In this document: positions 61,317-64,000 of the stretch, one piece after another
Layout of the letters: every line of letters starts with the position of its first letter
Position numbering within the stretch: position 1 is the stretch's first letter
DNA from: Rhizobium sp. Root274
GTDB lineage: Bacteria > Pseudomonadota > Alphaproteobacteria > Rhizobiales > Rhizobiaceae
Assembly (NCBI RefSeq): GCF_001429245.1
Contig: NZ_LMJE01000008.1
Location: 248,001-312,000, forward strand
Direction: 5' to 3'
DNA: 64,000 nucleotides
Translations under genes and position numbers: made by a program
Notes under the pieces: model-generated
What the model was told of the DNA's origin: nothing
Seen by the model: only the letters and a program-made list of their open reading frames with translations
The model's database searches: none

Positions 61317-62180
61317 TCAGCCTTGCGGGACAGAGAGATAGGTCTTGAAGGCGTCGGCATAGTCCGGATGCCAGCGCGAGAGCGGTGGCCGGTTTTCGAT
61401 GATGTCGCCAGCGGCCCAGGCGATACGCTTCTCGTCGAGCGCGCGTGGCACCTCATTGTCGGGACACAGGATGTAAAAGTCGCCACGCTCCAGGCTTTCG
61501 AGCATGAAGGCGACCGTTTCTTCCGGGGTCCAGGCGCCTGCCGGTTTCTCGGTGCGACCGTTGGCCGTCAGCGAGGTGAAGACGAAGCCCGGGATCAACA
61601 AATGGGCCGTGACGTTGCTGTCCGCCGTGTTGCGCAGTTCGTGTTGCAGGGCTTCGGTGAAGGCCTTCACGCCGGCCTTGGAGACGTTGTAGGCGGGATC
61701 ACCCGGTGGCGTCGTGATGCCCTGCTTGGATCCGGTGTTGATGATGAGCGCTGCGTCCTTGTGCGCAATCATGCCGGGACCGAAGGTTCGCGTTCCGTTG
61801 ATCACACCCATGAGGTTGACGCCGAGCACGTTTTCCCAATTGGATTGCGGGCCGAAGAGCGCGCTGCCCGGCTGGATGCCGGCATTGTTCATGAGGACGT
61901 GGACGCGGCCGAAGCGCTGGATGACGGCGCGCTCCAATGCCTCAAGCTCATCCAGCTTGGACACATCCGTGCCGATGGCGACCACATCGGCTTCTCCGCC
62001 AGCAGCAAGAGCCGTGACTTGTAAGGCCGCATCAGCGAGGCGATCTCCTTCGAGGTCGACAAGGACGACGCAGAGGCCCATGCTGGCAAAGGCTTTGGCC
62101 GCAGCTAATCCGATGCCGGATGCCGCGCCGGTGACCACGGCGACATGGCCCTTGGCAAGCGCTGGATGCTGGATCGTCAT
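61317..62180 (-). CDS. SDR family NAD(P)-dependent oxidoreductase
   Basis: A 287-residue classical short-chain dehydrogenase. Cofactor loop TGAASGIG at 17-24, MNNAG near 97-101, catalytic Ser151 (INTGSKQG), Tyr164-x3-Lys168. AAGGAG before the ATG decides the start; a TTG two codons earlier is less likely. It shares its upstream region with the parD antitoxin gene, transcribed divergently. Substrate unknown. Confidence 0.9.
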   Translation of the reverse strand: MTIQHPALAKGHVAVVTGAASGIGLAAAKAFASMGLCVVLVDLEGDRLADAALQVTALAAGGEADVVAIGTDVSKLDELEALERAVIQRFGRVHVLMNNAGIQPGSALFGPQSNWENVLGVNLMGVINGTRTFGPGMIAHKDAALIINTGSKQGITTPPGDPAYNVSKAGVKAFTEALQHELRNTADSNVTAHLLIPGFVFTSLTANGRTEKPAGAWTPEETVAFMLESLERGDFYILCPDNEVPRALDEKRIAWAAGDIIENRPPLSRWHPDYADAFKTYLSVPQG

Positions 62181-62202
62181 GGGCAAACTCCTTTAGAACC
62201 TG

Positions 62203-62231
62203 TGGTATTGTCTCTGGTGGCGATATGGTAT
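62203..62231 (+). promoter_or_regulatory. Two TGGTAT repeats upstream of parD
   Basis: TGGTAT occurs at 62203-62208 and 62226-62231, 23 bases apart (about two helical turns), in the 101-base gap between the SDR gene and parD. Ribbon-helix-helix antitoxins often bind such spaced repeats to autoregulate. Confidence 0.35.
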
Positions 62232-62281
62232 CCTAGCGGAGCATCGTCAACGTGACGGCCGTCGATGGAGGATTGCTGCCG

Positions 62282-62530
62282 ATGAACAAGATGACCACCG
62301 TGACCGTTTCCGGAGAGTTGGCGCAGTTCATCGAGGCCAGGATCGCAGCCGGAGATTACGCGTCGGAAGCAGAGGTCATTGAGGCAGCCCTTGCCCTCCT
62401 GCGCGATGAGGTGGATGGCCTTGCTGCCATCAAGTCCGCCATTGAAGAGGGCGAGGCATCCGGCGAGCCGCAGCCTTTCGACTTCGACGACTTCATTGAT
62501 AGCAAACGCCGCCAGTCGGCTGCTGAATGA
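62282..62530 (+). CDS. parD: ParD-family type II antitoxin
   Basis: An 82-residue ribbon-helix-helix antitoxin. The N-terminal beta strand TTVTVSGEL and the helix pair (LAQFIEARIAAGDYASEAEVIEAAL, broken here only by description) form the DNA-binding dimer at residues about 5-40. The C-terminal tail (about 48-82, acidic with FDFDDF) would wrap the ParE toxin. GGAGGA lies ten bases before the ATG. Its stop overlaps the ATG of the toxin gene in ATGA, the standard parDE layout. The antitoxin reading frame is intact even though the toxin gene is broken. Confidence 0.88.
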   Translation: MNKMTTVTVSGELAQFIEARIAAGDYASEAEVIEAALALLRDEVDGLAAIKSAIEEGEASGEPQPFDFDDFIDSKRRQSAAE

Positions 62531-62817
62531 AGCGCCTGATCGTTTCACCCCATGCAGCGCGGGATATCGATGGGATCTTCGATTAAACGGAAGAGCGATG
62601 GGGGCTGGAACAGGCAGTAGCCTATGCGCTCGGGATAAAGATCAGCTTGCGGGCAATCTGCGAAGGTGAACGAAGCGGCCGAAAAATTCCGCAACTCTCC
62701 AAAGCCTATTTGAGCTTGGCTTACCGATCCCACTACCTCGTGTATCGTGAAACCCGACAAACGATCGTTCTCATCCGTATCCTCCATCAGCGCATGAATA
62801 TTGGCCGTCATCTCTGA
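62527..62817 (+). pseudogene. parE: ParE-family toxin gene interrupted by an in-frame stop
   Basis: The 97-codon frame starting at the ATGA overlap reads as a ParE toxin, a RelE-fold inhibitor of DNA gyrase: it begins MKRLIVSPHAARDIDGIFD and continues after the stop with TEERWGLEQA, then GRKIPQLSKAYLSL and YRSHYLVYRE. Codon 20 is TAA (62584-62586) exactly where ParE relatives have the Tyr of the D-Y-T segment, so a single base change TAT or TAC to TAA explains it. No suitable restart codon lies close downstream. The remainder of the frame is open to its natural TGA, so the lesion is recent or the sequence has one error. Confidence 0.87.
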
Positions 62818-62926
62818 CGCTCTCGGCCCCTCTTGCCCTTGCACACCAGCGGAATCTCGCTAAAAGTGCCGCCATTCTTGATCCAGGCGGGGTTTGAGCC
62901 TCGCTCCTTCCAGACGGAACATCGAC

Positions 62927-64000
62927 ATGGCACTCCCCAAAGACGTGAAGAAAGTCGTCCTCGCCTATTCCGGCGGTCTCGACACCTCGATCATCCTGAA
63001 ATGGCTGCAGACCGAACTCGGTGCTGAGGTCGTAACCTTCACCGCCGATCTCGGCCAGGGCGAAGAGCTCGAGCCGGCGCGCAAGAAGGCCGAGATGCTG
63101 GGCATCAAGGAGATCTTCATCGAGGACGTGCGCGAAGAATTCGTGCGCGATTTCGTCTTCCCGATGTTCCGCGCCAACGCCGTTTATGAAGGCGTCTATC
63201 TGCTCGGCACCTCGATTGCTCGTCCGCTGATCTCCAAGCACCTGATCGACATCGCCAAGAAGACCGGTGCAGACGCGATTGCCCATGGCGCGACCGGCAA
63301 GGGTAATGACCAGGTTCGTTTCGAGCTTTCAGCCTATGCACTGAACCCGGACATCAAGATCATCGCCCCGTGGCGCGACTGGGCTTTCAAGAGCCGTACC
63401 GATTTGCTCGCTTTCGCTGAGCAGAACCAGATCCCGGTTGCGAAGGACAAGAAGGGCGAGGCGCCTTTCTCCGTCGACGCAAACCTGTTGCACTCCTCTT
63501 CGGAGGGCAAGGTTCTAGAAGATCCGTCGGTCGAGGCACCGGAATACGTGCACATGCGCACGATCTCGCCGGAAGCCGCTCCCGACAAGGCCACCATCAT
63601 CAAGGTCGGCTTCGAGAAGGGTGATGCCGTCTCGATCAATGGCGTTCGCATGAGCCCGGCTACGCTGCTCGCCGAACTCAACACCTATGGTCGCGACAAC
63701 GGCATCGGCCGCCTCGATCTCGTCGAAAACCGCTTCGTCGGCATGAAGTCCCGCGGTGTCTACGAGACCCCCGGTGGCACCATCCTCCTTTCGGCACACC
63801 GTGCAATCGAATCGATTACGCTCGACCGGGGTGCAGCCCATCTCAAGGACGAGCTGATGCCTCGTTACGCCGAGCTCATCTATTACGGCTTCTGGTTCTC
63901 GCCGGAGCGCGAAATGCTGCAGGCGCTGATCGATAAGAGCCAGGAGCATGTGGAAGGCGAAGTGACGCTCAAGCTCTACAAGGGCAATGTCATGGTCATC
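62927..64000 (+). CDS. argG: Argininosuccinate synthase (3' end outside window)
   Basis: The first 358 residues of the enzyme that joins citrulline and aspartate in arginine synthesis; the C-terminus lies beyond the window. The ATP pyrophosphatase loop AYSGGLDTS is at 13-21. Further blocks are [39 protein letters not shown] and the tetramer-contact region [17 protein letters not shown]. The first complete ATG with GACGGAACATCGAC upstream gives the usual N-terminus [17 protein letters not shown]. It is transcribed away from the broken parDE pair. Confidence 0.96.

Follow-up and report, generated by a model that had tools for sequence, protein, structure and literature searches.

The persistence of toxin-antitoxin systems on chromosomes is a long-standing question. 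In Escherichia coli, chromosomal systems decay by deletion or nonsense mutations, as described in two reviews (PMC7167474, PMC2654758). E. coli ccdO157 is a small chromosomal toxin-antitoxin islet that occupies a fixed place and is degenerating, and the islet described here is like it in each of these respects. Unlike ccdO157, however, it encodes ParDE, is found in two genus groups of the Rhizobiaceae and has two toxin types that are exchanged within it. Its proteins share the ParE fold and the ParD family with the solved complexes of Caulobacter ParDE1 (3kxe), M. tuberculosis ParDE1 (8c24) and Pseudoalteromonas PrpAT (7ycs), but these are intact pairs, whereas the ParE examined here cannot be made whole.

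The locus of interest lies in a 64,000-nucleotide stretch of the Rhizobium sp. Root274 genome (contig NZ_LMJE01000008.1, positions 248,001 to 312,000), hereafter called the window, to which all coordinates refer. An open antitoxin gene without a working toxin beside it is a feature that this locus has in common with orphan antitoxins and anti-addiction modules (PMC7354431). In contrast to orphan antitoxins, a toxin remnant is still in place in the window, and no close ParE was found elsewhere in the Root274 genome. The ParDE2 and ParDE3 pairs of Mesorhizobium opportunistum, like the islet pair, are alphaproteobacterial, and their specificity has been mapped to residues within helices 2 and 3 of ParD (PMC7669267). 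These pairs are insulated paralogues within one genome, whereas at the islet unlike types replace each other at one site.

We consider it about 80% probable that the parDE pair of the window is an ordinary type II system in which a single nonsense codon has disabled the toxin gene, and that it is an allele of a horizontally exchanged chromosomal islet. The stop itself is ordinary: systems of this kind are known to decay, and this is one more broken toxin. Of greater interest is the islet, because a single site sees turnover of toxin type, of toxin death and of absence. We place it, as a variant, with the chromosomal toxin-antitoxin islets already known to decay and to be exchanged, and part of the picture is the textbook view of decaying islets. 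In two genus groups, one fixed place holds working pairs of two types, toxin-dead pairs with their antitoxin, deletions and empty sites. The site is a natural experiment on whether toxin-antitoxin pairs are useful or selfish, and the window stop codon is one of 12-13 replicate events rather than a curiosity.

The parDE locus of the window

The parD gene (62282-62530, plus strand) is open, starts with ATG at 62282 (MNKMTT...), encodes 82 amino acids and ends at the TGA at 62528-62530. The parE frame on the same strand begins at the ATG at 62527, within an ATGA overlap with the parD stop, and comprises 19 codons (62527-62583), a TAA at codon 20 (62584-62586), and 76 further residues in a frame (62587-62817) that is open up to the normal TGA ending at 62817. 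Translation confirmed this TAA as the sole in-frame stop within 62527-62817, as the initial annotation had stated together with the intact parD and its overlap with the toxin start. With TAA at codon 20, a complete ParE toxin cannot be made from this frame.

Both genes have recognizable family membership. The ParD protein matches PF03693 (E 3.8e-20) and TIGR02606 (62.3 bits; cut-off 46.2) and has the ribbon-helix-helix N-terminus of its family, whose profile matches solved ParD chains. When X is placed at the stop, the window ParE matches the Pfam family ParE_toxin, PF05016, with E 3.2e-12 and 47.3 bits (cut-off 23); no NCBIfam model matched it. Taken alone, the sequence beyond the stop still matches PF05016 (E 1.9e-7), and this is therefore a real gene rather than a chance frame. 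By sequence descent only, a ParE-family gene lies directly downstream of parD. Given the TAA at codon 20, the window locus is a broken relative of a ParDE type II system rather than a working member.

To place the stop within the protein fold, we used the predicted structure of the intact ParE from Rhizobium wuzhouense W44 (mean pLDDT 93.5), for which Foldseek returned the ParDE-type complexes 8c24, 7ycs and 3kxe at E 7.2e-8 to 1.3e-7. Codon 20 falls within predicted helix 1 (H8-25), and thus the 19-residue product corresponds to strand 1 and part of helix 1. The claim that the stop replaces a conserved Tyr was nearly right: of the 19 intact relatives aligned, 16 have Tyr here, 2 have Phe and 1 has His, which makes this an aromatic (or His) position.

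The pair is flanked on the left by a divergent open reading frame on the minus strand (61317-62186), which from sequence resemblance we take to encode a short-chain dehydrogenase/reductase (SDR). On the right is argG (62927-64000, plus strand), presumably the gene for argininosuccinate synthase, which lies within an open reading frame (62894-64000) that continues past the window end. The intergenic region between SDR and parD (62187-62281) contains the pattern GATATGGTA...GTCAAC(A/G)TGAC (within 62200-62260), which is present in islet-bearing genomes and, slightly changed, at most empty sites. This pattern may be the SDR promoter. A promoter and terminator scan returned nothing, including no sigma-70-like promoter in the SDR-parD intergenic region. 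The argG leader and argG start (62832-63000), of which about half is non-coding, show 95-100% identity in 22 of the 63 genomes from the window's genus group, the window included. An RNA element in this leader was considered and dropped, as Rfam yielded no match up to E 1 for the stretch.

Distribution of the SDR-argG islet

We surveyed 63 genomes of the genus group to which the window belongs and 57 genomes of a second Rhizobiaceae genus group, with one genome per species, by ParD and ParE searches combined with argG positions. A parDE islet between SDR and argG was found in 40 genomes: 12 of 63 in the first group and at least 28 of 57 in the second, where ParD matches were listed down to E 7.8e-8 and weaker remnants may lie beside argG in the other 29 genomes. 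The best ParD match is unlisted for G460, G452, G201, G455 and G498, and G471 has no argG match. Thirty-nine of the 40 loci come from genomes with a strong ParD match (11 of 63 and 28 of 57), all situated between SDR and argG. The remaining locus, in G041, was added by matching weaker ParD hits to argG coordinates by eye and stands outside the tree and the selection tests. SDR and argG adjoin the islet in 40 of 40 loci. Named carriers of the closest ParD at this site are R. wuzhouense W44, R. rosettiformans W3, Peteryoungia aggregata, R. rhizophilum and Agrobacterium albertimagni AOL15. In a family-wide sample of 394 genomes, 47 have a ParD match at E <= 1e-19, and scores of at least 132 bits are confined to G000 (the window genome), G062, G363 and G401, the next being 98.6; the lower-scoring matches of this sample were counted by score only.

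The fixed place is accompanied by empty sites. In the first genus group, the SDR-argG gap was inspected in the 12 empty genomes of the tree, out of the 51 other genomes of that group. On a tree built from the SDR and argG flanks, these empty sites are patchy yet clustered, requiring 7 changes, a number that was as low in 3 of 500 shuffles. Ten of the 12 empty gaps (L072, L074, L077, L079, L081-L085 and L088) contain a stretch that resembles the last parE codons at 14-16 of 21 positions, a resemblance matched in at most 2 of 500 shuffles, and the other two gaps are without it. This shared stretch suggests one old deletion, of which the ten gaps would be copies, and so they are not independent support for ancient deletions.

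The islets carry two cassette types, designated A (18 loci, including the window) and B (15 loci), and the other 6 of the 39 loci are deletions.

Recurrent loss of ParE

At the SDR-argG site, parE is broken in 13 of the 40 loci by 12-13 distinct lesions. Nonsense alleles are found in G000, G024 and G486, the latter two at about codon 59, and frameshift alleles in G001, G453 and G457. Deletions affect G030, G478, G491, G463, G496 and G499, and in G041 parE is reduced to its tail. The G491 and G463 loci have the sequence after parD in common, and their deletions may be one event. On the flank tree, the label "dead" needs 12 changes for the 12 dead loci that it contains. Comparison with close relatives, a check that the initial annotation had recommended, shows that its suggestion of a "strain-specific" loss was too narrow, because the toxin has been lost repeatedly at this site in both genus groups.

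The antitoxin gene fares differently. All 27 loci with intact ParE have an open ParD, as do 10 of the 13 toxin-dead loci (9 of 12 plus G041); ParD is broken in G030, G453 and G499. ParE alone is broken in 9 of 39 loci versus none for ParD alone (sign test, two-sided p 0.004); with G041 included, the counts are 10 of 40 and 0 (two-sided p 0.002). These independent inactivations are consistent with loss of toxin before antitoxin and include no case of the reverse, with G453 and G499 as a possible exception. The parD genes of these two (L211 and L226, respectively) are the only ones of 39 with small lesions. Both have a stop at the same codon, which leaves an N-terminal, DNA-binding-like portion of about 41 residues, and the failure of ParD in this lineage may predate the parE lesions seen today. 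The main survey was seeded with ParD. ParE-seeded searches in both genus groups (E <= 1e-20) found no ParE without ParD beside argG, at a threshold that strongly decayed remnants would escape. The data support reading the window locus as a decayed module whose antitoxin gene is intact, with parD open and parE cut at codon 20.

The initial annotation had offered a sequencing error as the alternative, in which case parE would be intact in the living strain. The window stop is a single substitution known from one genome and from its assembly only, and a one-codon difference would be enough to produce it. Nevertheless, we consider an assembly or sequencing error very improbable, because parE is broken repeatedly while its neighbours, which errors should strike equally, are nearly clean. 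Specifically, the SDR and argG flanks (39 loci each) contain 1 stop in 65.5 kb, versus 6 small lesions in 33 parE genes (~9.5 kb), an excess with a one-sided p of 2.6e-5 by length and a Fisher p of 0.003 by gene, although this control tests the lesion pattern and not the window base itself. Sequencing error as a general cause of the parE lesions is ruled out by this flank control. Moreover, the Root274 genome (4.56 Mb in 14 contigs, 99.55% complete) has 19 ParE-family matches, of which 17 are above the cut-off, and an in-frame stop is present in the window copy only. The one flank stop belongs to A. albertimagni AOL15 (L049, G002), whose SDR gene is interrupted in frame near codon 153.

A second alternative is programmed recoding, wherein the TAA is read through or translation re-initiates beyond it to give regulated ParE. 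The well-preserved frame past the stop would be expected from such a mechanism, yet we find it scarcely credible. Uninterrupted frames occur in 27 of the 40 loci, and the possible restart sites in the window come late: among the ATG, GTG and TTG starts listed beyond the stop, the earliest is the TTG of codon 41, which lies past helix 1, and the first in-frame ATG is codon 90. Recoding at codon 20 was rejected on the grounds that all 32 remaining parE genes of types A and B lack a stop there, the other two nonsense alleles being distant from it.

Inactivation of an ordinary toxin gene by a nonsense codon remains our preferred reading. The TAA would give an inert 19-residue peptide. Toxin-first loss would be the viable order of decay, because a cell that lost ParD and still had active ParE would be poisoned.

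Exchange of cassette types

The exchangeable segment is a cassette of ~293 bp (62483-62775, plus strand; type A in the window) that includes ParD residues 68-82 and ParE codons 1-83, its borders having been placed from the PQPFD and RILH motifs used in a regional identity comparison. It is followed by the parE 3' tail (RILHQRMNIGRHL) and the argG leader (62776-62926, plus strand), which are well kept across cassette types and form a candidate right homology arm. Between types, this ~290-bp segment, comprising the ParD C-terminus and most of ParE, is 43-49% identical.

We compared identities by region for 16 hand-chosen pairs, eight of unlike type and eight of the same type. In seven of the eight unlike-type pairs, the 5' half of parD is 83-99% identical and the tail and leader 88-97% identical, but the cassette only 43-47%. 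For G485/G486, G363/G469, G401/G458 and G483/G457, the upstream region and first 67 ParD codons are 89-100% identical and the tail and leader 91-97%, with cassettes again at 43-47%. The border is less sharp in the eighth pair, G467/G464 (parD 5' half 65%, cassette 49%, tail 77%). Cassettes of the eight same-type pairs are 74-99% identical. In G479/G482 and G002/G025, the whole islet is 96-100% identical, versus 88-91% for SDR and 94-96% for argG. Because the islet is more alike than its flanks, these two pairs point to recent islet transfer.

Cassette types are hardly better clustered on the flank tree than shuffled labels. Type A requires 13 changes, and 142 of 500 shuffles (mean 14.3) needed no more; type B requires 12, and 206 of 500 shuffles (mean 12.7) needed no more; A versus B alone likewise requires 12. 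Inclusion of the empty sites gives three labels that do cluster, with 16 changes where shuffles average 21.2 and 1 of 200 is as low, and therefore turnover is not free of ancestry.

Under the preferred reading, the islet would move between Rhizobiaceae species by recombination in shared flanks, with one arm formed by the SDR-parD side together with the DNA-binding half of ParD and the other by the parE tail with the argG leader. Toxin-dead alleles would later be deleted or overwritten by an incoming cassette. A further proposal, which we advance tentatively and with less than even confidence, is that the islet is a toxin-type switching site. In this scheme, the ~290-bp segment that encodes the toxin-binding end of ParD together with most of ParE would pass between species and genera as one replaceable block, the constant ParD half and the tail and leader would serve as homology arms, and toxin-dead alleles would be short-lived intermediates. 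The toxin would die, ParD would linger, and the site would then be deleted or refilled by a new cassette. If switching is true, every incoming cassette would come under immediate regulation, because the ParD half and the operator stay constant. By rough position without alignment, the cassette border seems to fall between the two ParD specificity helices. The islet supplies antitoxin pairs with nearly the same DNA-binding half and different toxin-binding ends. Literature searches on the exchange of cassettes at toxin-antitoxin loci, on parDE in connection with Rhizobium and argG, and on Peteryoungia toxin-antitoxin systems found nothing on point by title or start of abstract; most subscription journals were outside their scope, and this is no proof of novelty.

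Role of the remaining ParD

The ParD of the window would be without a toxin of its own to neutralise. It is probably still made and probably still represses its own promoter; we regard it as probably a leftover that may still autoregulate. The initial annotation had raised the possibility that the free antitoxin neutralises other ParE copies and had advised a search of the genome for other parDE loci. Beyond the 19 ParE-family matches noted above, this search yielded 9 ParD-family matches, all above the cut-off. No close second ParE for the window ParD to serve was found in the Root274 genome. Neutralisation of its other ParE copies is unlikely, because the closest of these is 28% identical to the window ParE, the closest ParD paralogue is 38% identical, and ParD-ParE pairs are described as highly specific to their cognates (PMC7669267).

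A different possibility is that the solo ParD has been retained for a job of its own, either as a repressor of the divergent SDR gene or of the parDE/argG transcript, or as an anti-addiction factor that neutralises incoming same-type ParE. This proposal has the core of the preferred reading in common and differs only on the present role of ParD. It is in keeping with the open ParD in most toxin-dead loci, and anti-addiction by orphan antitoxins has been proposed (PMC7354431). The portion left in the broken ParD of G453 and G499 is, moreover, the DNA-binding-like one. We nonetheless judge such a role unlikely. The 12 empty-site relatives in the tree indicate that ParD is dispensable, and the scan between SDR and parD revealed no promoter-like site.

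Selection tests were carried out on trees that ignore recombination, which is evident in the islet. For ParD, 36 of the 39 loci were used, with G030, G453 and G499 left out as broken; the toxin-deleted G478, G491, G463 and G496 keep an open ParD and were part of this test. The codon-likelihood estimate of omega is 0.086 on the branches of nine toxin-dead loci versus 0.083 elsewhere (2dlnL 0.01). This lack of ParD relaxation on toxin-dead branches could mean continued use rather than a passive leftover. However, the low ParD omega is not informative on function after toxin loss, because parE is equally unrelaxed on several dead branches, and for this reason we do not claim that solo ParD is under selection after toxin loss.

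The parE tests were based on 33 of the 39 loci, the six deletions being left out. Omega is 0.21 on dead type A branches versus 0.14 (2dlnL 0.75), and on dead type B branches 0.064 versus 0.14 (2dlnL 4.3), a difference opposite to relaxation. Counting omega = 1 as rejected at dlnL beyond 1.92, we found rejection for the parE genes of G024, G001, G457 and G486, and not for those of G000 or G453. The losses in the former four are therefore probably late on their branches. For the window parE branch, omega is 0.41, and neither 0.15 nor 1 is rejected; the intact relative G062 has about the same parE omega, and omega = 1 is likewise not rejected for it. Intact parE branches vary as widely, as for G469 (omega 0.40, 2dlnL 4.7) and the near-zero branch of G482 (omega 12.2, 2dlnL 6.6). 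Consequently, the description "recently decayed" suits those four other copies, and for the window copy it is no more than a possibility.

A second ParDE locus, found in G471 (L227:1600-1881; G471:C1:598599-598880), lies in a 3.5 kb stretch without SDR or argG. Its ParE has two in-frame stops and its ParD is open, and it reads as another toxin-first loss.
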